64,000 nt of DNA from Rhodothermales bacterium (lineage in GTDB: Bacteria; Bacteroidota; Rhodothermia; Rhodothermales; VXPQ01): positions 2,142,965 to 2,206,964 of the forward strand of contig OX638295.1 of assembly GCA_951812345.1 (NCBI GenBank), given 5' to 3'. Position 1 is the stretch's first letter; each line of letters begins with the position of its first letter. Shown here in pieces: positions 22,087-42,865 of this stretch. Made by a program: the position numbers and the translations under genes. The notes beneath the pieces were generated by a model. That model was not told the origin of the DNA. It worked only from the letters and a program-made list of their open reading frames with translations, and searched no databases.

Positions 22087-25000
22087 TTATCCATCCCCTC
22101 CTGTCCGCCCGGCCCGCCGTACCGAAGCCATAAACTCCACGAGGTCCCGGATCTCTCTTTCCGAAAGCAAGGTGGACATGTCGGGCATGGCGGAAGGGCC
22201 GCCTTCCGTGCCGAAACCCGGTGCGATGCGGGCCGCCGGATCCACGAGGGATTCGAGCAACTGCATCCGGTCCAGCCGATCCCCGATCCCGGCAAGAGAC
22301 GGCCCTACGCCGTCTTCTCCGACAAACGGATGGCAGCGAGTACACTCTCCTGCGGGATTCCCCATGAAAACCTGCACGCCGCGCCTCCGGTTGCCGCCGT
22401 AAAGCGCAGCGGCAAACGGCGGGTTCGCCGCCCGCCAGGCTTCCGCTCGGGTCATCAGGGCATCGGAGCCGGCTGCCTCCACGGCTTCCAGAATGTCGAG
22501 CCGGATTTCCGGCGCGGCTTCTCCGTTTTCGAGGCGACCCAGCAATTCGCCCAGTACTTCGGTCGTTTGCGGGGAGGGCAAGCCACTCAGCGTGGCCAGC
22601 GCACTCTGCTGCTCCGGCACGCCGCCCTGGCGCAGCGCTTCGCCAAGTATGGACGCCACTTCGTCATTACCCAGATCGGCTTCCGTCACCAGTTCGAGCG
22701 CAAGCATGCGCACGTCGGCGCTTTCGTCCGCGAGCGCCTGGCGCACGGCTCCCGCATGATCCGCTTCCGGTACGTCCAGCAGCGCCTGCAAGGCCGCAGC
22801 GCGGACTTCCTCCGAATCATCCATGTGCAGCCGATCCACGAGCAAAACGTCCGCACCGTCGATATGCAAGCGGGCGGTTGCAGTAACCGCCTCTTCACGC
22901 ACCGCCGCATTCTCGTCGGATAACAGCATTTCAGCGAGAGGCGCAACCGCTTCCTGCGCAGCCGTTGCAGCGCGGTGTACGGGCCCCAGATACGCGCCGT
23001 CTACCCGATCAAGGGTAGAGGGCTCGGACCATACGCCCAGCGCGGCAATGGCTTCCGCGCGCATCGTTGCAGGCGCGCCGCTCTGTGCGGCATAGGCCGC
23101 CAGACGACCGGCGTCGGCATCGCCCCCCACCCGCAGGTTGGCGCTGATCACCCGGCGCAAAAGCGGCTCGTTCTCGAAAGAAGTGACGTCCAGCAGGGCA
23201 GCCAGAAAAGGCAGCGCCGCCGGGATGCCCCCGTCGTCGTTGATGGCGCGTGCGGCTTCCGTGACCACGAATTCGTCGGCGTCGGCAAGAAAGACCGAAA
23301 CCCCTTCGTCCTCCATCCGGCGCAGCGCAAGCACGGCCCCCATACGTACCGCATCAGAGGCATGACCGGCAAGCGCCATGAGCGCCACCGCATCGCCAAG
23401 CCGGCTCAGGGCCAGCGAACCCGCGTGGCGCAGGTATACGTCCTCGCCCCCGGCCTCTTCAAGCATGGTTACCAGGCCGTCCAGCGCGGGACGGTGCGCA
23501 ATGCGTCCGAGGGCCTCCGCCGCAAAGAAACGGACCCGGTCCGAATCGTCGGAAAGTAGCGGCGCAAGCGCTTCGCCCGCCGCCGCATAGCGTACGTCTC
23601 CAAGCACCTTTGCGGCCTGCGCGCGCATCTCGGCGTCCGCATTCTCAAGCAAGGCGACCAACGGCGCGGCTTGCTCGACATCCTGCAAGGCCAATTGCCA
23701 TATCCCCCATATACCATGAATGCGGGCATACGCCGTTTCGGTCTGCCGGGCGGCCCGCAGAAGCGTTTCCGCATCCCCCCGACGCGCCAGCTCGAACTGC
23801 GCCTTCTGCCGAACTCGCATGTCCGGGCTATGCAGCAGATCGTAGAGCGCATCCGACTCGGCCTCCCCAAAATCCGCAGTCAGTTGTGCGCGCACCTTGC
23901 TGCGCGCGGCTTCATCCGGCTCGGCGGCATCGAGTTTCCAGACGCGCCCGGCTCCCTTGGTGCGCCATCCGTCGATCCAGTCGGCAAAATACAGCGCGCC
24001 GTCCGGGCCGAACGCCAGCCCCACGCCGAGTACGCTCTTCACGGCCACATCTTCTTCCGCCAGCTCGAAGCCCGCCCCCCTGGGCTCAAGACGAAACGCA
24101 TGAATATCCGACGTGAAGGCGGAGCCGGTGTACTCGGACATGAAAAAGCGGCCGTTCCATTCTTCGTTCAGGGCCGTGCCGGGATTATACACGATCCCTG
24201 TCGGGCCATCATGATAGTTCATGATCGGAGGGGTAATAAAGGCCGCCTGCCCTTCGAATTTCGGCAAATACAACCCCTCGTCCATCCAGGGCTTATAAGG
24301 GTTGTTCGTTTCTTCGTGGTATTTGCCGAATTGCCAGTGCGTTCGCCAACCGCTGTCCGACCCCTCGACAATATATACGAGCCGCTCGCTCTCGTTCGGG
24401 TGATCCCCGTCGTTGTCCACGCTGATCAGGTTGCCGTGAGCGTCGAACGCAAACTCATGCGTATTGCGCAGCCCGCGGGCAAAGAGTTCCAGCCCGGAGC
24501 CGTCGGGAAAAGCCCGGAGAATAGCGCCCTGATGAGGATAATGAATGGCTTCCCCTTCCCCGGAGACAAGGCTCAGCCCCATATCGCCAACGCCCCAGTA
24601 AATGCGTCCTTCCGGCCCTATGGTGACGCCGGACACGCCATGCCCGGAAAATCCGGGGTGGACATTATAGCCCCAACTCAAGGTGGTTACGTCCGAGGCG
24701 TCCGGGGTAGCATTGCTCAATGCATCTTCGAGCCGGTACACGCCTGGCGCTGCGGACAGATAGATATCCTCGTCGTGCACCATCAACCCCCCCAGAATAT
24801 CCGAAACCAGCGTATTGAAACCGGCAACGAGCGTGTGCGCCTGGTCGGCTACGCCATCGCCGTCGGTATCCTCGATGCGATAAAGTCGCTCCTTGACCAC
24901 CGTCAGATCGCGCCAGTCCCGCGACCCGTCTTCGTTGAGATCGGGCATCCATTCGTTCTCATCGCTCAACTCCGGCGCCATGACCTCCCTTATAAACGCT

Positions 25001-25413
25001 TCGAAGTCATGGGTCGTCTTCATCGCGAGCGCGTCGAGCCGCCAATCCGGGTGCTGCCGTATGTCCAGCAGGCCCATCGTCCGACTCGACCTGGTGACAA
25101 GTATTTCGCCGGTGTCCGCCACATCGATGGCCACAGGGTCCTGGATCAGATCCTCGGTGGCGTACATGGAAAGAACCAGACCGGGTGCAGCAGACGCTTC
25201 GAGGGAGGCTTCCGTGTCCCGAGCCGCTTTCGCGGCTTCGGCGGGATCCAGCTCGATGGCAGGCTCGGACGCAAAAACGAAGGGCAGCGTATCCGGGGGG
25301 GCGACGGCCCGCTCGCCGGTGCCTTGCGCGGGACCACATGCGGAAAACACGCCGGAAAACAGTACGGCAAGCGCCGGAACAAACAGGCGAAAACGACAGA
25401 CAGGACGAGACAT
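22087..25413 (-). CDS. Membrane-bound dehydrogenase-type (TIGR02604-like) lipoprotein with HEAT repeats and C-terminal cytochrome c domain
   Basis: 1108 residues from the ATG at 25413, which gives a lipoprotein signal (MSRPVCRFRLFVPALAVLF, lipobox FSAC); a frame from 25440 is also open. Residues about 40-470 form a beta-propeller of the membrane-bound-dehydrogenase/glucose-dehydrogenase type (GEILVTRSSRTMGLLDI, YWGVGDMGLSLVSGEGEAIHYP, RNTHEFAFDAHGN, NPGTALNEEWNGRFFMSEYTG). HEAT repeats follow (about 490-980, repeats with RFFAAEALGRIA and VREEAVTATARL). A cytochrome c domain closes the protein with one haem site, GECTRCHPF (codons near 22330-22345), and an axial Met in PSAMPDM. Proteins of this build oxidise sugars or similar substrates in the periplasm and pass electrons to haem. 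The GDSL hydrolase gene follows on the same strand. Confidence 0.88.
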   Translation of the reverse strand: MSRPVCRFRLFVPALAVLFSGVFSACGPAQGTGERAVAPPDTLPFVFASEPAIELDPAEAAKAARDTEASLEASAAPGLVLSMYATEDLIQDPVAIDVADTGEILVTRSSRTMGLLDIRQHPDWRLDALAMKTTHDFEAFIREVMAPELSDENEWMPDLNEDGSRDWRDLTVVKERLYRIEDTDGDGVADQAHTLVAGFNTLVSDILGGLMVHDEDIYLSAAPGVYRLEDALSNATPDASDVTTLSWGYNVHPGFSGHGVSGVTIGPEGRIYWGVGDMGLSLVSGEGEAIHYPHQGAILRAFPDGSGLELFARGLRNTHEFAFDAHGNLISVDNDGDHPNESERLVYIVEGSDSGWRTHWQFGKYHEETNNPYKPWMDEGLYLPKFEGQAAFITPPIMNYHDGPTGIVYNPGTALNEEWNGRFFMSEYTGSAFTSDIHAFRLEPRGAGFELAEEDVAVKSVLGVGLAFGPDGALYFADWIDGWRTKGAGRVWKLDAAEPDEAARSKVRAQLTADFGEAESDALYDLLHSPDMRVRQKAQFELARRGDAETLLRAARQTETAYARIHGIWGIWQLALQDVEQAAPLVALLENADAEMRAQAAKVLGDVRYAAAGEALAPLLSDDSDRVRFFAAEALGRIAHRPALDGLVTMLEEAGGEDVYLRHAGSLALSRLGDAVALMALAGHASDAVRMGAVLALRRMEDEGVSVFLADADEFVVTEAARAINDDGGIPAALPFLAALLDVTSFENEPLLRRVISANLRVGGDADAGRLAAYAAQSGAPATMRAEAIAALGVWSEPSTLDRVDGAYLGPVHRAATAAQEAVAPLAEMLLSDENAAVREEAVTATARLHIDGADVLLVDRLHMDDSEEVRAAALQALLDVPEADHAGAVRQALADESADVRMLALELVTEADLGNDEVASILGEALRQGGVPEQQSALATLSGLPSPQTTEVLGELLGRLENGEAAPEIRLDILEAVEAAGSDALMTRAEAWRAANPPFAAALYGGNRRRGVQVFMGNPAGECTRCHPFVGEDGVGPSLAGIGDRLDRMQLLESLVDPAARIAPGFGTEGGPSAMPDMSTLLSEREIRDLVEFMASVRRAGRTGGDG

Positions 25414-25515
25414 TAGCGAAGTACAGGAGAAGGTGAACATCGAGGCCGCACGGGCAGTATGTTATCGTTGCGCGATCTGGCGCACTATAGAGCCTTAACG
25501 ATATAAAATTCTGGC

Positions 25516-34157: not shown

Positions 34158-34925
34158 TCACATGTGCTCCTTCACGTAGATAGTACGGAACTGCACAAGC
34201 GCAGGCGGGCTGACCCATTCCCCGGCGTCGTTCTTGTGACCATGGTGCTGCAAGCCGATGGGGCCGCAGTCGGGAATTTCGTTCAGGTGAATGCGGTCGA
34301 TGACAAGCTGGCCATTGATCCAGATGGTCATAAACTGGCCCCGAACGACGATCTTCGAAGAGTTCCATTCCCCGATCGCATGGTCCGCATTGACGAGCGG
34401 TAACGCTGCCCGGCGAACCTCCGGCGGCTGGTTCCGATCCATGCGATAGCCATAGACTTCCCCCGACCCGTACGGCCAGTTCCAGATGTTATGCTGGGCC
34501 TTGCCATGGCCGCGCGGGAGAATGCCCGAATCGGAATCGGGCACGGACATCACCATGGGGTTACCGTCCTGATCCATCTTGTGCGTGCCGTCGGCAAGGA
34601 TGATCGGCACTCGGGGGTTCGTGTACGGCTCTACGGTGGTAAGGCGCCAGTCGATCTTGAGCGTGTAATCGCAATAATCCTTTTCGGTCCAGAGACTCTT
34701 GTCTCCTTCCGCTTCGCTTTCCGCGTCATAGTCGATCACGCCGTCGATCACCTTCCAGTGGCCGCCGTCGCCTTCGGGAATGACCCAGCCGTCGAGGTTT
34801 TCCCCGTTGAATATGGACGTGTAGCCCTCGGGAGCCTCCATCTGGGCATGGGCCGTCCGGGGTGTAGTGCACAATGCGAGCAACAGAATCATGCAGAGCG
34901 AAAGTGCATAGCGTCTCGATTTCAT
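34158..34925 (-). CDS. DUF1080 (3-keto-disaccharide hydrolase-type) secreted protein
   Basis: 255 residues with a signal peptide ending TAHAQ. The concanavalin-like jelly-roll domain has the family opening YTSIFNGENLDGWVIPEGDGGHWKV, then GVIDYDAESEAEGDKSLWTE, SDSGILPRG, EWNSSKIVVRGQFMTIWINGQLV and the terminal IGLQHHGH, VQFRTIYVKE. The family includes enzymes that cleave 3-keto-glycosides, but the Pfam name covers proteins of untested function. It is followed on the same strand by nothing closer than the convergent CotH-type gene. Upstream on the same strand are an MFS transporter and a Gfo/Idh/MocA oxidoreductase, the enzyme type that makes or reduces keto-sugars, which supports a keto-sugar role. 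Confidence 0.88.
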   Translation of the reverse strand: MKSRRYALSLCMILLLALCTTPRTAHAQMEAPEGYTSIFNGENLDGWVIPEGDGGHWKVIDGVIDYDAESEAEGDKSLWTEKDYCDYTLKIDWRLTTVEPYTNPRVPIILADGTHKMDQDGNPMVMSVPDSDSGILPRGHGKAQHNIWNWPYGSGEVYGYRMDRNQPPEVRRAALPLVNADHAIGEWNSSKIVVRGQFMTIWINGQLVIDRIHLNEIPDCGPIGLQHHGHKNDAGEWVSPPALVQFRTIYVKEHM

Positions 34926-35030
34926 GGCGTCAGGGGTATGATGAGAAAAGATTTGTTGCAGAGACGCGCCGGAGCGCCCCCGGTTTCCCCGGCGGCGCTC
35001 CGACCGTACGTTGCAATGGATGTATGTATC

Positions 35031-35046
35031 AGGATACTCTGATCAG
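35031..35046. repeat. Intergenic repeat, copy 4 (short)
   Basis: AGGATACTCTGATCAG lies 18 bases downstream of the MFS transporter stop, in the gap before the DUF1080 gene. It is identical in 15 bases to the core at 10995. Only one arm is present. Confidence 0.55.
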
Positions 35047-35063
35047 AAGACCGGCGCTAAATT

Positions 35064-36443
35064 TCAGCCGGTTTCTTCCTCCACCTTCAGTTCGACGGCC
35101 TTGTACCCGCCCTTCGACCGGAAGTACAGGATCAGGAGTACGTAGCACACGAACATGAAGGCCGGGAACCATGCCACGGTCTTCAACGCCAACTGGCTCG
35201 CTGCCGATTGCACAGCCACGACACGGTCCTGATCTTCCTGGGGCAGCAGCGCTACGGCGTCGTCGTCAAGCGCACGATAGGGCACCGTCCCGAGCAAGGC
35301 GGTACGTTCCTCGCCAAGTATCTGGTCGCTGATATCTGCGGCCTGTTCCTCTACCTGATTGGTAATGGAGTTATCCTGTATAGCGCCAATGATCGGACCG
35401 CCAAGCGCACCCGCCGCAAGCATGCCGATGCCCGCAATCGTATTGATCGTCATGGCGCCGCCCTGGGGAAACTGCTCGGAAACCACGCCCAGCGTCGTCG
35501 GCCAGAAGAAGGTCTTGCCGAGGCCGTAGCAGGTGGCGGCAATGAATACGTACCAGAGTACCGACCCTGCCTGCGAAAGCAGAACAAGCCCTATACAGGC
35601 GATCCCGGCGCTGCATGCGAGGAGACCCAGCGGATTGATCCGGTGAACGATCGGCCCGGCGAAAAACCGAAGCACGAACATGATGGCCGAAGTATACACC
35701 AGCACCCACAGCGGATGTACGGGGGTGTTACTCAGTACGCTGGTCATCAGCGCCGTAATCCAGCCATCCGTACCCAGTTCGGTGATGGCCAGCGGAACCA
35801 TGATAGCCAACAGGATGAGAAACAGCGGGTGGTACATGGTCTTGAGCATGCCCGCGTACCCGACGCCCGCGGCCACGCGCTCCTGCACCGGCCAGGTCTC
35901 CCGAATCAGCATCCAGCCGTAAACCAGCGTGGGAAGAATCACGAACGCCACCTGCCAGCGCCAGCCGATGTCGCCGACCGCGATAAGCATGATGCCGCCC
36001 AGCACAAGGCCGCCCGGCCACCCCGCATGAAGGATATTCAGGTGGTGCGTCTTGGAATTGGGGTACAAGGTGGCTACCGCCGGATTAATGACGGCCTCCA
36101 CGATACCGTTTGAAAGCGCCAGGATGAATGTGCCGATGTAGAGCACCCAGAACGGGTCGCCTATATGCCCGGCGCATATCGTGACGAGCGCGGAGACCAC
36201 ATGGCCCGCGCACGCGATGCGGATCGACGTATGGTACCCGATCTTGTCGATGATCAGGCTGAACAAAATGATCGTAAGCGGGAAGCCCAGAACGCCGGCC
36301 CCGCTGATCCATCCCAACTGCACACCGCTCAAATTGAACTCCGTGCCCCATTCAAAAAGGAGGCCGGCCCGGATAACGAAGCCGAAAGCCGTAGCGACCA
36401 GCGCCACGATGCTTCCTACGAAAAGACGGTTTTTATTGACCAT
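35064..36443 (-). CDS. MFS transporter (sugar-porter-like, about 12 TM)
   Basis: 459 residues from the ATG at 36443 (MVNKNRLF), just upstream of the first membrane helix; the frame is open to 36509 but that stretch is polar and overlaps the end of the oxidoreductase gene. About 12 hydrophobic segments are visible in two halves (VGSIVALVATAFGFVIRAGL, WISGAGVLGFPLTIILFSLI, GWRWQVAFVILPTLVYGWM; then FLILLAIMVPLAITELG, VFIAATCYGLGKTFFWPTTLGVV, AMTINTIAGIGMLAAGALGG). The central polar loop and a soluble insert of about 60 residues near the end (QVEEQAADISDQ...) are MFS-like or unusual, respectively. The oxidoreductase gene ends 31 bases upstream on the same strand, suggesting one operon for uptake and oxidation or reduction of a sugar. 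Confidence 0.88.
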   Translation of the reverse strand: MVNKNRLFVGSIVALVATAFGFVIRAGLLFEWGTEFNLSGVQLGWISGAGVLGFPLTIILFSLIIDKIGYHTSIRIACAGHVVSALVTICAGHIGDPFWVLYIGTFILALSNGIVEAVINPAVATLYPNSKTHHLNILHAGWPGGLVLGGIMLIAVGDIGWRWQVAFVILPTLVYGWMLIRETWPVQERVAAGVGYAGMLKTMYHPLFLILLAIMVPLAITELGTDGWITALMTSVLSNTPVHPLWVLVYTSAIMFVLRFFAGPIVHRINPLGLLACSAGIACIGLVLLSQAGSVLWYVFIAATCYGLGKTFFWPTTLGVVSEQFPQGGAMTINTIAGIGMLAAGALGGPIIGAIQDNSITNQVEEQAADISDQILGEERTALLGTVPYRALDDDAVALLPQEDQDRVVAVQSAASQLALKTVAWFPAFMFVCYVLLILYFRSKGGYKAVELKVEEETG

Positions 36444-36474
36444 GATGGTGTTGCGGGATGAATGAACGAGAGAT

Positions 36475-37584
36475 TTAAGAAACTTCAGGGATGTCGATGC
36501 GCCGCCCACCCTGCATGGCCGACTCGTGGGCGCAAATGCCCGTCATCGTCCAGTTGGCTGCAGGGGCCGCATCGGAGACCGACTCGCGGTCTTCCAGAAT
36601 CGCCCGAAGAAATTCGTGGACCATGTGAGGATGCGAGCCGCCGTGCCCGCCGCCCTGAATGAACGACGTATGCTCGTGCTCGTCATCGTAGACGCCGCCG
36701 GTGGTAAAGGACGCAATCTCGTCAGGAAGCAGGTGGGCGTAGTCAGGCGCCTCGACGCGTTCGGCGTCTTCGTAGCCGGAGTATACGACCGGCCCGTCGC
36801 CGATCGTCTGTTCCCACTCGAACGAACTTTCCGTGCCGTACACGTCGAAGCTTTCCCGGTACTGCCGGATGGTGTTGAAGAGGGACCGAGTCACCTCGCA
36901 GCATAGGTCCGAATCCACCATCGAGACCAGCGCGGACTCGACGGCAAACGGGGAACCGTAAGGCTCGATATAATCGTCCTGGATACGCCCGGAGCCGAAA
37001 CACACGACGGATTCGGCGCGCGCCCCGGCAAGCAACAGCAGCGGACTGACCGCATGCGTAGCGTAATGCATGGGCGGAAACCCGTACCAGTAGGCAGGCC
37101 ATCCGGGCAAACCCATGTTCTGCTGATGGGAGCCGCGCAAAAACTGTATTTTCCCAAGGCGCCCCGATTCGAGAAGCTCCTGCGCATACAGGAATTCGCG
37201 GGTGTAGATGGCCGTTTCCATCATCATATACACCTTGCCGCTTTGGCGGCGGGCCTCCGCGATCCGGAGACATTCTTCCACCGTCGTCGCCATAGGCACG
37301 GTGCAGGCCGTATGCTTGCCGGCCTCCAGCGCGGCCAGCGACATGGGAGCATGGGCGGAAATCGGGGTGTTGATGTGAATGGCGTCCACCTCAGGCTCCG
37401 CAAGAAGCGCTTTCAGGTCCGTATAGCGGCGATCTACGCCGAATTGATCTCCAATCTCGTTGAGATCTTTTTCGTCCCGCTTGCAAATCGCCCACAGTTC
37501 GGCATCGGGATGGCGTTGGTATATCGGGATGAACTCTGCGCCGAAACCCAGTCCGACGACCGCAACCTTGATCTTGTCAGGCAT
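36475..37584 (-). CDS. Gfo/Idh/MocA family oxidoreductase
   Basis: 369 residues. The N-terminal Rossmann fold opens KVAVVGLGFGAEFIPIYQRHP (GxGxxA nucleotide motif), continues LLAEPEVDAIHINTPISAHAPMSLAALEAGKHTACTVPMATTVEE, then the C-terminal beta-sheet substrate domain. In most members the segment after 'GKH' reads EKP, with Lys as a catalytic or cofactor-contacting residue. Here it is CTVPMA, so the lysine is missing and the reaction may differ. The family oxidises or reduces sugars and inositols with NAD(P). The MFS transporter gene follows with a 31-base gap. Confidence 0.88.
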   Translation of the reverse strand: MPDKIKVAVVGLGFGAEFIPIYQRHPDAELWAICKRDEKDLNEIGDQFGVDRRYTDLKALLAEPEVDAIHINTPISAHAPMSLAALEAGKHTACTVPMATTVEECLRIAEARRQSGKVYMMMETAIYTREFLYAQELLESGRLGKIQFLRGSHQQNMGLPGWPAYWYGFPPMHYATHAVSPLLLLAGARAESVVCFGSGRIQDDYIEPYGSPFAVESALVSMVDSDLCCEVTRSLFNTIRQYRESFDVYGTESSFEWEQTIGDGPVVYSGYEDAERVEAPDYAHLLPDEIASFTTGGVYDDEHEHTSFIQGGGHGGSHPHMVHEFLRAILEDRESVSDAAPAANWTMTGICAHESAMQGGRRIDIPEVS

Positions 37585-37627: not shown

Positions 37628-37705
37628 AATATGGATATGCTGATTAAGTCCACTGCGATCGACACTTCGCCTTTCGCGCGTAAACGACATAATGATTCCA
37701 TCGTC
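37628..37705. repeat. Intergenic repeat, copy 5 (diverged)
   Basis: ATGGATATGCTGATTAAGTCC at 37631-37651 matches the core and the CTGATTAAGTCC arm of the 53748 copy. It is followed by CGCTTTCGCG-like blocks and ATGATTCCATCGT, the same end block as copy 2. It lies between the divergent oxidoreductase and cupredoxin-HEAT genes. Confidence 0.5.
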
Positions 37706-37862
37706 GAAATCAGCAGAAAATATTGCGGATTCGGGGCGTCGCGGGCGTGACACGCCCTTCGGGAGACTGAGAGGGATGCGGCTTGCCTTTTCGGCCCTGT
37801 CGATCGCAACATGCTCGTTCTCGGGAAGCAGATGCCGGGAAGAAGGGTTATTTTACCGGCTC

Positions 37863-38945
37863 ATGCACGACCACCTGAATCCGCTCGCTCTCCGGATCAT
37901 GCTTCTCCGCTGCACCTGCTTCCTGTTGCCGGGTCTTCTGGCGATCTTACTCCCCGGCTTGCGCCCCTCCCTCGCGCAACAGGCTGCGGACGCGGACCGA
38001 GAATATATCCTTGAAACCAATATCCTCGGATACTGGGGCGTGGGCGGCGATATCAACGGGGTGCGCAATCCGGTGTTGCGGGCGGAGAAAGGCGAAACCG
38101 TGCGCATCGTCATCGTGAACATCGAACCGCTGGTGCACGATCTGGCCCTCGAAACATTGCAAATTAAAACGAAAGAGATCCTGGACATCGGCGAGCAGAC
38201 CGATCTCACGTTTACCGCCGTAGAGGACGATATCTATTACTGCACGATTCCGGGGCACCGGGCCGCCGGCATGGAAGGACGTTTTGAGATTATACGGGAA
38301 GCAGGGGTTGCCGCCGGGCCCGCGCCGGAAGCGAATGGGGGTAACGGCAACACAGCGCGTGTGCCTTCCCTGAGCGAGTTACCCCCTCCGGAAAACATTC
38401 CCCTGCCCCCGCTGGAACTGCCGCCCGACGCAGATTTGCAGGCAACCGGCAGCCCGACAAACACGGAGCTGACGGCTCTCCTGGATCACCCCAACGAGCA
38501 CATCCGGGCAAGAGCCGTGCAGCTGCTTGCGGAGGACGGGAATGCCCCGGAGCATGTCCTGAACACCTTTGCGCGCATGGCCCGGGAGGATACCTCCGCG
38601 CTGGTGCGGACGTATCTCGCGGAAACGTTGCGAAAAATCGAGCCTGAGCGCCGCTGGCGCGCACTGGAAGGACTGCACAGCCATACAGAAGACGCTGCAA
38701 ACTATGTGCTGCCGCTGCTGGTCTGGTACGCCACCGAGGCCGCCGTGCCGGCGGATATGGATCGGGCGCTGACGATAGCGCTGGTTTCGGAATTACCGAA
38801 TATATTATCCTTTACGGTACAGCGTATCGCTGCAGAAGGATCGCAGGAAGCGCTTCGCATCCTTTCCGGGCGCCTGCCCGAAGCGAACGCCGAAGAACGA
38901 AAAATCATCCTAAACGGCATTAACCGGATCGTCAAATCCGACTGA
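37863..38945 (+). CDS. Secreted cupredoxin fused to HEAT repeats
   Basis: 360 residues from the ATG at 37863 (MHDHLNPL); the frame is open from 37692, and 37899 is also possible, but these put the signal peptide (LLRCTCFLLPGLLAILLPG, end SLAQ) nearest the start. A single plastocyanin/azurin-like domain spans about 45-150, with type-1 copper ligands His92 (EPLVHDLAL), Cys127, His132 and Met137 in the classic C-x4-H-x4-M spacing (CTIPGHRAAGM). After a Pro-rich linker come two to three HEAT-type repeats (about 205-360). These are clearly related to the C-terminal HEAT part of the dehydrogenase-type protein at 40247-42865. Likely a copper electron carrier or acceptor for that protein. FG-GAP and dehydrogenase genes follow. 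Confidence 0.82.
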   Translation: MHDHLNPLALRIMLLRCTCFLLPGLLAILLPGLRPSLAQQAADADREYILETNILGYWGVGGDINGVRNPVLRAEKGETVRIVIVNIEPLVHDLALETLQIKTKEILDIGEQTDLTFTAVEDDIYYCTIPGHRAAGMEGRFEIIREAGVAAGPAPEANGGNGNTARVPSLSELPPPENIPLPPLELPPDADLQATGSPTNTELTALLDHPNEHIRARAVQLLAEDGNAPEHVLNTFARMAREDTSALVRTYLAETLRKIEPERRWRALEGLHSHTEDAANYVLPLLVWYATEAAVPADMDRALTIALVSELPNILSFTVQRIAAEGSQEALRILSGRLPEANAEERKIILNGINRIVKSD

Positions 38946-38964
38946 CCCACGACTAAACTGACTC

Positions 38965-40164
38965 ATGACTAAAACAATGTATACAGCCCTGTGTGCGGGC
39001 CTTTTGCTCTGCACGGCAGGCGCCGCAAGCGGACAATCCGCCTTCGACAAAACGCACCTCACCGACGTGTTTTTTGCGGAAGGAGGCGCTATCGGAGACC
39101 TGAACGGAGACGGTGCGGCGGACCTGGTGGCGGGACCGTACTGGTACGCCGGCCCCTCGTTCGAAGCGCGCCATGCGTTCTACGAACCCAACCCGTTCAG
39201 CATAGTGGGCTTTTCGTATTCGGACAATTTCATCGTCGAGGTGCACGATTTCAACATGGACGGGCGGAACGACATTCTCGTGATCGGATTTCCGGGACAA
39301 GAGGCGTTCTGGTACGAAAATCCCGGAGAGCCGGACGGAGAGGACACCGGATACTGGACGCGGCATCTCGCCTTCCCCACCGTGGACAACGAGTCGCCTC
39401 ACATTCTGGATATCACCGGAAACGGACATCCGGAAATCGTCTGCCATGCGGACGGGTATCTGGGCTACGCCTCGTACGATCCGGAGCGTCCGACCGAGCC
39501 GTGGACGTTTCGGCAGGTCGCCGGCCCGTACGAGGAGTTATTGCGCTTCACGCACGGGTTCGGAGTCGGGGATGTGAACGGCGACGGATTGCCTGACTTG
39601 CTGATGTCGAACGGATGGTGGGAAAATCCGGGATTCGATGTGGACACTCCCTGGGAACACCATGAAGAAGCGTTCGCCCTCGGCGCCGCGCAAATCTACG
39701 CCTACGATGTGGACGGGGACGGGCTGAACGACGTGATCGCGAGCCGCGACGCGCACGGCTGGGGTCTTTCATGGTTCCGGCAGCTCCCGGACGGCGGATT
39801 CGAGAAACACATTATTCTCCGGGAAGATGCGGCGCACGAGCCGGGCATGGTCCGGTTCTCCCAGCTGCACGCCGTAGCGCTGGTGGACATGGACCGGGAC
39901 GGATTGAAGGATATCGTGACCGGAAAACGATACCGGGCGCACGGCGAGGAAGTGGACCCCGAACCGAACGCCCCGCCGGTGCTCTACTGGTTCCAACTCA
40001 CGCGGACGGATACCGGCGAGGTTGTCTGGACCCCTCATCTCGTCGATGACGATTCAGGGGTCGGTGTCGCTCTCGCGGTGGAGGACGCGAACGGCGACGA
40101 CTATCCGGACATTCTGGTCGTGAACAAGAAAGGCACGTATATTTTCCGCCAGAACACCCGGTAA
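38965..40164 (+). CDS. FG-GAP/VCBS-type repeat secreted protein
   Basis: 399 residues, signal peptide ending ASGQ. Repeats with calcium-loop cores recur: GDLNGDGAADLVAGPYWY, DFNMDGRNDILVIG, DITGNGHPEIVCHADG, GDVNGDGLPDLLMSNGWWENPG, DVDGDGLNDVIASRD, DMDRDGLKDIVTGKRY, DANGDDYPDILVVNKKG. Seven blades fit an integrin-like seven-bladed beta-propeller. It probably binds calcium and a polymer or partner protein at the cell surface. It begins 19 bases after the cupredoxin-HEAT gene and precedes the dehydrogenase-type gene by 82 bases, suggesting one operon. No catalytic signature is seen. Confidence 0.85.
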   Translation: MTKTMYTALCAGLLLCTAGAASGQSAFDKTHLTDVFFAEGGAIGDLNGDGAADLVAGPYWYAGPSFEARHAFYEPNPFSIVGFSYSDNFIVEVHDFNMDGRNDILVIGFPGQEAFWYENPGEPDGEDTGYWTRHLAFPTVDNESPHILDITGNGHPEIVCHADGYLGYASYDPERPTEPWTFRQVAGPYEELLRFTHGFGVGDVNGDGLPDLLMSNGWWENPGFDVDTPWEHHEEAFALGAAQIYAYDVDGDGLNDVIASRDAHGWGLSWFRQLPDGGFEKHIILREDAAHEPGMVRFSQLHAVALVDMDRDGLKDIVTGKRYRAHGEEVDPEPNAPPVLYWFQLTRTDTGEVVWTPHLVDDDSGVGVALAVEDANGDDYPDILVVNKKGTYIFRQNTR

Positions 40165-40246
40165 ACAGCCCGACGGACGTGAGTACGCGCAACGCCGGCA
40201 CAAAAATACCTGTTACAGTATACCACATTGCCCACAAGAGGTTTCC

Positions 40247-42865
40247 ATGCCTGCCGCCCTGTCCCTGCCCCGCTCCCTTGTTCTTCGCAGCGTCCTTGCC
40301 AGCGCTGCCGTCTTGTTCGCCGTCTCAATGGATTCCGCACCGGCAGCGGCGCAGGACGCCGGGCAAGCGCCGGCAGCCGACGGACGCGCACTGAACCTCG
40401 ACTTCGAGGCAGGCGACCTGACCGACTGGACGGTGGAAGGCGAAGCCTTCGGAAACGAACCCGTCGAAGGCGACCCGTTCGCCTCGGGCGAGGCGGCTGT
40501 CGCAGAAATAATCCAGGCGCTGCGGGAACGGCGCAATCAGGAACCGGCAGCCTTGCGGAGCGGGCACCAGGGCGTCCGGTGGATCAGTTCGGGGGTGACG
40601 CACGGGCCGGCGAGCGAGGGGACGCTGACCTCTTCCCCGTTCGAGGTGACCCATCCGTACGCAAGTTTTCTGATTTCCGGGGGGGCGCTGGAGAGCACCC
40701 GGGCAGAACTGGTCCGGGCCAGGGATGGGGCCGTCCTTTTTTCGACGAGCGGCGACAACGACCTTACCCTGCGTCCCGTCGTGGCCGATCTGGAAAAGCA
40801 TGTCGGCGAGACGATCTTCATCCGTCTTGTGGACGAGGATACCGGCGGCTCCACGGCGGCCTACATCCCCGAGAACGCGTATGCGCACATCAACTTCGAC
40901 CATTTTCGTTTCCATGTGGAACGGCCCTCCTTCCCGGATGAACTCGATCCTTCCGGGATTGCAAGGCTACCGGCTTGGGATCCGGTATTGCTGGAAGGGG
41001 GAAGCGCCCAGGAAGCCGCGCAGACGATGACCGTGCCGGACGGTTTCCATGTGCAACTGGCCGCGGCGGAGCCGGATGTCGTCAATCCCATTGCGATGGC
41101 GCTCGATCACCGGGGGCGCGTGTGGGTTGTCGAGGGGCGGACCTATCCGGTTCGGGCTCCGGAAGGTGAAGGCAAAGACCGGATTCTCATTTTTGAAGAC
41201 ACCGACGGAGACGGGGCGTTCGATGTGCGGAACGTCTTCATGGAAGGGCTGAATCTGGTAAGCGGCCTGGAACTCGGCTTCGGAGGAGTATGGGTCGGAG
41301 CGGCTCCCTACCTGCTCTACATCCCTGTCGACGCATCGGGCGACCGGCCCGCAGGCCCTCCGGAGGTATTGCTGGACGGGTTCGGCTACCACGACACGCA
41401 CGAGACCCTGAATTCCTTCATCTGGGGACCGGACGGCTGGCTCTACGGTACACACGGCATATTCACCCACTCGAACGTGGGCAAACCGGGCGCGGAAGAC
41501 GCCGACCGCGAAAAACTCAATGCGGGCGTATGGCGGTATCACCCGACGCAGCACATCTTCGAGGTGTTTGCGTACGGCACCAGCAATTCCTGGGGACTGG
41601 ACTGGGATGCGCACGGGCAACTGTTCCTGACCGCCTGCGTCATTCCGCACTTGCATCACGTCATTCCCGGCGCCCGCATGATCCGGCAGGCAGGCGGACA
41701 TTTCAATCCGTACGTGTACGACGATCTGGACCCGATCGGCGACCATGTACACTGGGTGGGCAATCTGGGACCCCACGCGGGCAACCGGCGATCCGGTTCG
41801 ATGGGAGGCGGACACGCCCATGCAGGCGCCATGATCTACCAGGGCGGCTCGTGGCCGGAAACATACCACGGGCGCATTTTCATGCACAACATCCACGGCT
41901 TCCGGGCGAACACGGACATTCTCGAACGAAGCGGCTCCGGGTACGTGGGGCGGCACGGAGAGGATTTTCTGCTGACCCACGATAGCTGGTCCCAGATGCT
42001 GGATCTCGTATACGGCCCGGACGGGTCCGTGCATGTCATCGACTGGTACGACAAGAACCAGTGCCATCACGGCAACCCCGAAAGCCATGACCACGAGACC
42101 GGGCGCATCTACCGGATTTCGCACGAAAACGACGAGTGGAGGCCGATCGATCTGGAGCGGCTCTCTTCTCTGGAACTGGCCGAACTCCAGATGCACCCGA
42201 ACGACTGGTACGTGCGCACCGCGCGGCGCATCCTGCAGGACCGGGAACCGGACGAAGCCGTACACGAAGCGCTATGGACCCGGTTCGAGGAGAATCCGGA
42301 CGATACGCGGAAGCTGCGGGCGCTCTGGGCGCTGCATGTGACCGGCGGCCTTTCGGACGAATCGCTGACCGGCCTGCTCGACCACGAAAACGAACACGTC
42401 CGGGCATGGGCGATCCATCTTCTGGCCGAAGACCGGAATGTGCCTGAAGAGGCGGCGCAGGCATTCGCCCGGATGGCCGGGGAGGATGCTTCCGCGCTGG
42501 TCCGGCTCTACATCGCAAGCGCCCTCCAGCGCATGGCGCCCGACTGGCGCTGGGAGGCGCTGGACGCGCTCACGAAACGGGCCGAAGACGCCGGAGACCA
42601 GAATATCCCGCTGATGACATGGTATGCGCTGGAGCCGCTCGTGCCGACGGACATGCCCCGGGCCATGGACATGGCGCTCTCGGCCGAGTTGCCCCGTATC
42701 CTTCCCTTCACCGTCAGCCGCATTGCGGCTACGGGCACGGAAGAGGCGCTCTCCCTGCTGTCCGGGTACCTGGGCACGCTGGAAGATGCGGATAAACAGG
42801 CCGTGATTATCGACGGCCTCAACCAGTTCGTAGAGGAGGCGGAAAGCGACGAACAAGACAATTAA
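40247..42865 (+). CDS. Membrane-bound dehydrogenase-type (TIGR02604-like) protein with HEAT repeats, no haem site
   Basis: 872 residues, start supported by the AGAGG ribosome binding site. Signal peptide ends APAAAQ. Residues about 45-230 form an extra N-terminal jelly-roll (LDFEAGDLTDWTVEG, YIPENAYAHINFDHFRF). A beta-propeller follows (about 255-640) with the family blocks MTVPDGFHVQLAAAEPDVVNPIAMALDHRGRVWVVEGRTYP, GLELGFGGVWVGAAPYLLYIP, HETLNSFIWGPDGWLYGTHG, GTSNSWGLDWDAHG. HEAT repeats fill the end (about 680-860). Unlike the protein at 22087-25413 it has no CxxCH motif. Its HEAT region resembles that of the cupredoxin protein encoded just upstream, so copper rather than haem may be its redox partner. 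The PhyH-like oxygenase gene follows 50 bases on. Confidence 0.88.
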   Translation: MPAALSLPRSLVLRSVLASAAVLFAVSMDSAPAAAQDAGQAPAADGRALNLDFEAGDLTDWTVEGEAFGNEPVEGDPFASGEAAVAEIIQALRERRNQEPAALRSGHQGVRWISSGVTHGPASEGTLTSSPFEVTHPYASFLISGGALESTRAELVRARDGAVLFSTSGDNDLTLRPVVADLEKHVGETIFIRLVDEDTGGSTAAYIPENAYAHINFDHFRFHVERPSFPDELDPSGIARLPAWDPVLLEGGSAQEAAQTMTVPDGFHVQLAAAEPDVVNPIAMALDHRGRVWVVEGRTYPVRAPEGEGKDRILIFEDTDGDGAFDVRNVFMEGLNLVSGLELGFGGVWVGAAPYLLYIPVDASGDRPAGPPEVLLDGFGYHDTHETLNSFIWGPDGWLYGTHGIFTHSNVGKPGAEDADREKLNAGVWRYHPTQHIFEVFAYGTSNSWGLDWDAHGQLFLTACVIPHLHHVIPGARMIRQAGGHFNPYVYDDLDPIGDHVHWVGNLGPHAGNRRSGSMGGGHAHAGAMIYQGGSWPETYHGRIFMHNIHGFRANTDILERSGSGYVGRHGEDFLLTHDSWSQMLDLVYGPDGSVHVIDWYDKNQCHHGNPESHDHETGRIYRISHENDEWRPIDLERLSSLELAELQMHPNDWYVRTARRILQDREPDEAVHEALWTRFEENPDDTRKLRALWALHVTGGLSDESLTGLLDHENEHVRAWAIHLLAEDRNVPEEAAQAFARMAGEDASALVRLYIASALQRMAPDWRWEALDALTKRAEDAGDQNIPLMTWYALEPLVPTDMPRAMDMALSAELPRILPFTVSRIAATGTEEALSLLSGYLGTLEDADKQAVIIDGLNQFVEEAESDEQDN

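Follow-up and report, generated by a model that had tools for sequence, protein, structure and literature searches.

Two putatively secreted proteins, P1 and P3, are encoded one gene apart in a 64,000-nucleotide stretch of Rhodothermales bacterium DNA (contig OX638295.1, positions 2,142,965 to 2,206,964; hereafter the window). They are probably the two halves of a copper-coupled dehydrogenase that in other bacteria is made in one piece, separated by gene duplication and complementary loss, with electrons passing from the propeller half to the copper half. Each protein has a predicted signal peptide, judged from its sequence. In P1 it is followed by a type-1 cupredoxin domain, a proline-rich linker and a HEAT tail, and in P3 by a jelly-roll-like region (a label of our own; the region has no Pfam match), a DUF7133/TIGR02604 propeller and HEAT repeats. 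Together with an FG-GAP repeat gene, P1 and P3 form three closely spaced genes on the + strand. The features are as follows (ORF, open reading frame; pLDDT, predicted local distance difference test; aa, amino acids).

37899..38945, + strand: P1, secreted cupredoxin-HEAT protein, 348 aa from ATG 37899 (ORF; start placed by conservation)
37977..38306, + strand: type-1 cupredoxin domain of P1 (motif coordinates; ligands invariant in the alignment)
38136-38138 (His), 38241-38243 (Cys), 38256-38258 (His) and 38271-38273 (Met), + strand: copper ligands of P1 (motif coordinates)
38307..38435, + strand: proline-rich linker of P1 (low pLDDT over much of its length)
38436..38936, + strand: HEAT tail of P1 (alignment to P3; pLDDT mostly 89-97)
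38965..40164, + strand: FG-GAP repeat protein between P1 and P3 (ORF, domain scan)
40247..42865, + strand: P3, jelly-roll-like region, DUF7133 propeller and HEAT, 872 aa (ORF, Pfam and NCBIfam scans)
40379..40921, + strand: jelly-roll-like region of P3 (similarity to one-piece relatives)
41003..42127, + strand: DUF7133/TIGR02604 propeller of P3 (PF23500 and TIGR02604 matches)
41768..41833, + strand: His-rich stretch GPHAGN.RS..GGGHAH.GAM of P3 (motif coordinates)
42332..42835, + strand: HEAT tail of P3, common to P1 (alignment)

In the Pfam and NCBIfam scans, P3 matches TIGR02604 at 363 bits (cut-off 122.2) and PF23500 (DUF7133) at 230 bits (cut-off 27). P1 matches Copper-bind (PF00127) at 22 bits (cut-off 21.2), and its HEAT_2 match lies slightly below the cut-off.

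A HEAT tail shared by P1 and P3

The C-termini of P1 and P3 align over 168 residues, of which 86 are identical (51%) and 115 similar, with one gap position (169 bits, E 3e-50). This result confirms the first-pass annotation, which had described a HEAT tail common to two proteins one gene apart; all three motif pairs that it cited fall inside the alignment. When the P1 tail is compared with the window's own genome, P3 is found at 166.9 bits, and a single further HEAT region, that of a haem-bearing paralogue (78.2 bits, 37% identity), reaches E <= 1e-3, so that the two tails resemble each other well beyond the next HEAT region. In the predicted structure of P1 the tail is modelled with high confidence and the linker with low confidence, which is compatible with a tethered, mobile copper domain. 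The HEAT tails would serve to bring P1 and P3 together.

One-piece relatives and the origin of the two-gene form

Outside the window's genus, the same parts make up a single protein that runs, from N- to C-terminus, cupredoxin, jelly-roll-like region, DUF7133 propeller and HEAT. Among 148 related genomes searched, some from other families within the order or class contain frames of 949-1014 residues that match both ends of P1, and domain mapping placed the one-piece order in seven complete frames and in two cut by contig ends. The jelly-roll-like region of P3 is 44-50% identical to that of these relatives. The 80 named loci that score best, from Bacteroidota and Balneolota, all have this order as well; Spirosoma, Dyadobacter, Runella, Pedobacter, Arenibacter, Emticicia and Balneolaceae are among the groups represented. 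These loci are the best 80 of 573 relatives and give no frequency, because the query was led by a one-piece protein and favours that form. When 244 genomes of the class were scanned with only the cupredoxin domain, a query without bias towards either arrangement, 16 matches were strong. Of these, 5 are split and all belong to the window's genus; the other 11 are one-piece, two of them cut by contig ends. The remaining cupredoxin matches were weak, with E around 1e-4. In a phylum sample of 394 genomes, no split form was found outside the genus, and one further frame of one-piece length (967 residues) was present, judged by length alone. The split is real, because the window's genome is assembled as a single contig and the arrangement recurs in four further genomes; in a fifth relative of the genus (G005), the contig with the P3 end begins within P3, and P1 was not detected.

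Based on this distribution, the one-piece gene would have been duplicated around the neighbouring FG-GAP gene in the lineage of the window's genus. One copy would then have dropped the middle to become P1 (cupredoxin and HEAT) and the other the front to become P3 (jelly-roll-like region, propeller and HEAT), with HEAT retained in both halves. The FG-GAP gene lies between the halves in all four genus relatives that have both P1 and P3, and in 45 of the 80 named loci it is the next gene downstream of the one-piece gene, in the same orientation, as a duplication around it would leave. In a tail tree with nine haem-bearing outgroups, the tails of P1 and P3 together make up a single clade with support of 95/91 (91 in a faster tree built from 93 rows), and a single tail therefore existed when this lineage parted from the others. 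The "domain shuffling" proposed in the first-pass annotation is thus disfavoured, since the distribution and the tail tree fit the split of a one-piece enzyme better. The direction from one piece to two is an inference, as rooting does not prove polarity.

All regions of both halves are under purifying selection, with ratios of nonsynonymous to synonymous substitution rates below 0.55 for every region and pair. The ratios are 0.07-0.17 for the cupredoxin, 0.06-0.08 for the propeller, 0.23-0.47 for P1 tails and 0.16-0.25 for P3 tails, and the loosest region is the P1 linker, at 0.36-0.53.

Several results weigh against a split of a one-piece gene. In a rooted tree of the DUF7133 and HEAT regions, P3 branches outside all one-piece proteins (89/85), a position expected if the split form is older or from long-branch attraction. 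Joining P3 to the one-piece proteins of its own order costs 4.6 log units and is not rejected (approximately unbiased test, p-AU 0.077); nor is a single clade of one-piece tails (p-AU 0.234). The linker between the two domains of P1 may be left over from the one that joins jelly-roll-like region and propeller in the one-piece protein, although the comparison is suggestive at most. By local alignment, the P1 linker falls in the expected linker of 61 of 85 one-piece proteins for the window, 80 of 85 for the relatives G001 and G002, 40 for G003 and 24 for G004. Against 40 of these 85 proteins, 5 of 60 shuffles score as well as the window's linker and 0 of 60 as well as that of G001. In a profile test, the score is below zero for the window, G003 and G004 and 3.7 bits for G001 and G002, within the shuffle range in every case. 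The cupredoxin-to-jelly linker yields no signal in P1, as 63 of 500 shuffles do as well as the window's protein (35 to 392 of 500 across five species), and a comparison of the P3 N-terminus with the same linker gives 10 of 500 for the window and 231 of 500 for G001. As proof of a split, linker remnants were rejected.

The basal position of P3 in this one tree is also what would be seen if separate cupredoxin-HEAT and jelly-DUF7133-HEAT genes were ancestral and were fused later into the one-piece enzyme. That history is very improbable: it predicts P1 outside a group of P3 and one-piece tails, whereas P1 and P3 tails are sisters (95/91), and split forms are limited to one genus. A second alternative, corresponding to the shuffling idea of the first-pass annotation, is that in the ancestor of the genus a free cupredoxin beside a jelly-DUF7133-HEAT gene gained a copy of its neighbour's HEAT region, and that other lineages joined the cupredoxin to the N-terminal end of the enzyme. 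Such a capture likewise predicts sister tails and agrees with the rooted propeller tree, where P3 falls outside the whole set of one-piece proteins (89/85). However, several families of the order and class besides the window's have the one-piece form, so that under capture either the genus would be the earliest branch or the fusion would have spread sideways. In addition, no close free homologue of the cupredoxin without HEAT is found in the 244 class genomes, where only weak matches (E around 1e-4) remain, and FG-GAP genes neighbour both arrangements. Capture is therefore considered unlikely, and it keeps a share of the probability because the propeller tree puts P3 outside and the linker remnants are at best suggestive.

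Copper in the place of haem and the propeller

The copper ligands His, Cys, His and Met, in the plastocyanin/azurin pattern, are present in 5 of 5 P1 proteins, the window's included. All four are kept in 91 of 91 distinct cupredoxins, 87 with a C-x4-H-x4-M motif and four with C-x4-H-x3-M; going by their sequences, the latter are the one-piece cupredoxins L120, L141, L145 and L149. None of the 93 cupredoxin-bearing ORFs contains CxxCH. The nearest solved relative of the domain (2dv6, E 2.8e-17) is the copper nitrite reductase of Hyphomicrobium (2dv6, 6tfd), in which an N-terminal cupredoxin is likewise tethered to an enzyme. The enzyme body differs, and electrons run into the nitrite reductase but presumably out of the enzyme here; pulse radiolysis is reported to show that the tethered cupredoxin of the nitrite reductase takes up the electron first (PMC7201279). 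A two-domain NirK core with type-2 copper was not detected in P1 or P3 by the Pfam and NCBIfam scans.

Members of the TIGR02604-HEAT-TIGR02603 group, known as PVC-type (Planctomycetes-Verrucomicrobia-Chlamydiae) proteins, share the propeller family and the HEAT region and carry haem c. In contrast, the proteins described here lack CxxCH, carry the cupredoxin at the N-terminus or on a separate protein, and have a His-rich insert. P3 contains no CxxCH, no TIGR02603 match in the NCBIfam scan and only two Cys residues in total, in agreement with its earlier description as haem-less. Three ORFs of the window's genome reach the TIGR02603 cut-off, among them the nearest paralogue of P3, a 1339-aa protein with DUF6807, DUF7133, HEAT and haem domains, and a haem version also lies near the copper one within the window:

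22090-25440, - strand: DUF7133-HEAT protein with a C-terminal cytochrome c domain

With such haem-bearing siblings of P3 in the same genome, copper stands where relatives have haem. Copper is also the natural reading of the redox partner, because relatives carry the cupredoxin as the N-terminal domain of the same protein. The earlier proposal that electrons go to copper instead of haem is upheld to this extent: the cupredoxin belongs with the dehydrogenase, to which it is fused in relatives, and its ligands H, C, H and M are kept in every copy. The electron flow itself, from propeller to copper, is likely in view of the retained ligands, the lack of CxxCH, the nitrite-reductase-like cupredoxin and a propeller fold like that of dehydrogenases using pyrroloquinoline quinone (PQQ).

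This fold was assessed in a model of a one-piece homologue (946 residues, pLDDT 83.8, predicted template modelling score 0.74). Its six-bladed propeller superimposes on 3a9g with Z 28.4 and a root mean square deviation of 3.0 over 293 aligned residues. The 16 best-ranked folds are PQQ-type sugar dehydrogenases, AA12 enzymes or entries titled glucose dehydrogenase. Soluble PQQ sugar dehydrogenases and AA12 (3a9g, 1cq1, 6jt5) have the same six-bladed propeller at Z 26-28, with only 13-20% identity among rows of Z 26 or more. By sequence reading only, the propeller has an invariant His (DTHET) and an invariant Asn (G-x-S-N); the PQQ-enzyme motif at the latter position is presumably G-x-R-N. The AA12 pyranose dehydrogenase of Coprinopsis has its own electron-carrier domain, a cytochrome b, and its description names the catalytic His144/His363 and an Arg430-Asn431 pair as PQQ-binding residues of CcPDH (PMC6881789). 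Cytochrome there thus corresponds to a copper domain here, and one PQQ-motif arginine is apparently replaced.

The propeller would oxidise a sugar or glycoside in the periplasm, and electrons would pass singly to the type-1 copper of the cupredoxin, once on the same chain and now on P1. The cupredoxin would stand in for the haem c domain found at the C-terminus of PVC-type relatives and would hand electrons on to the respiratory chain. Three observations count against this scheme. The PQQ-motif position apparently reads Ser in place of Arg, and no PqqE over the cut-off is present in the window's genome, so that PQQ use by the propeller is uncertain; PQQ can be taken from outside, as is stated for E. 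coli (PMC6881789). Third, Lac161_ORF7, a TIGR02604-HEAT-cytochrome c protein and the one purified member of the haem branch that was found, is reported as a beta-galactosidase that hydrolyses lactose (Km 1.8 mM; PMC5342196). Profile searches of the PDB for a PQQ site were discarded, as WD40-type and other spurious matches came on top and 2ism and 2g8s appeared only at E 0.1-0.3.

The Lac161_ORF7 activity and the lack of a PqqE over the cut-off would also suit a propeller that acts as a glycoside hydrolase or a binding scaffold, with the copper domain serving something else, and the same fold is found in hedgehog-interacting protein. This role is doubtful, given that most architectures of the family seen carry a redox domain (haem c or cupredoxin) and that all of the top 16 fold rows are of the dehydrogenase types listed above.

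The His-rich stretch accompanies the cupredoxin. It is present in 83 of 86 one-piece proteins (the exceptions being one truncated protein and two with near versions) and in 5 of 5 P3 relatives, and every DUF7133 protein examined that has no cupredoxin lacks it; it is kept in P3 although the cupredoxin sits on P1. Since the stretch and the cupredoxin mark one clade, they represent one event and not repeated evidence. Altered His-rich stretches are seen in L120 and L127 (Membranihabitans).

P1 and P3 are better described as a copper-coupled, haem-less variant of the PVC-type dehydrogenase, in one piece in many bacteria and in two here. Tentatively, they may belong to a widespread, undescribed class of copper-coupled secreted sugar or glycoside dehydrogenases in Bacteroidota, with a tethered cupredoxin for haem and a two-chain form in one genus joined by its HEAT handle. 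The literature search returned no paper with the term DUF7133, and the titles and beginnings of abstracts screened revealed no description of a cupredoxin-DUF7133-HEAT protein. The NCBI model name would label P3 a "heme-binding CxxCH protein", although P3 has no CxxCH. Many proteins matching the "PVC-type heme-binding CxxCH" model are indicated to carry copper and not haem, in which case metal and redox needs inferred from the model name would be wrong. The system also offers a natural before-and-after case for electron transfer, as the same copper domain and propeller share one chain in many bacteria and sit on separate chains in one genus.

Neighbouring genes and the start of P1

Genes divergent from P1 were considered as evidence on the substrate:

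34158-37584, divergent from P1: 3-keto-disaccharide hydrolase, major facilitator superfamily (MFS) transporter and Gfo/Idh/MocA dehydrogenase genes

These genes lie beside P1 in 4 of 5 genus loci, the fifth being a short contig. Near the one-piece gene in the 80 named loci, the 3-keto-disaccharide hydrolase is found in 0, MFS in 0 and Gfo/Idh/MocA in 3; with neighbours so rarely kept, a glycoside substrate is a guess. The window's genome has eight DUF1080 matches, and a DUF1080 gene lies near P1. DUF1080 proteins are proposed to be 3-ketoglycoside hydrolases acting with lactose 3-dehydrogenase (PMC9007349), which makes an oxidise-then-cleave route at most a reasonable guess.

The long ORF of P1 spans 37692-38945 and includes an in-frame ATG at 37863, the start taken in the first-pass annotation. 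Conservation in four relatives suggests a start at ATG 37899, and the start was placed there because the long ORF overlaps a dispersed repeat in its first ~45 codons, which so look repeated themselves. This element, of ~145 bases, lies at 37630-37780, just 5' of P1. It has no Rfam match in the window, and it has at least 41 matches in the window's genome, its own copy included (40 of 137 candidates scored), the others at 75-88% identity.

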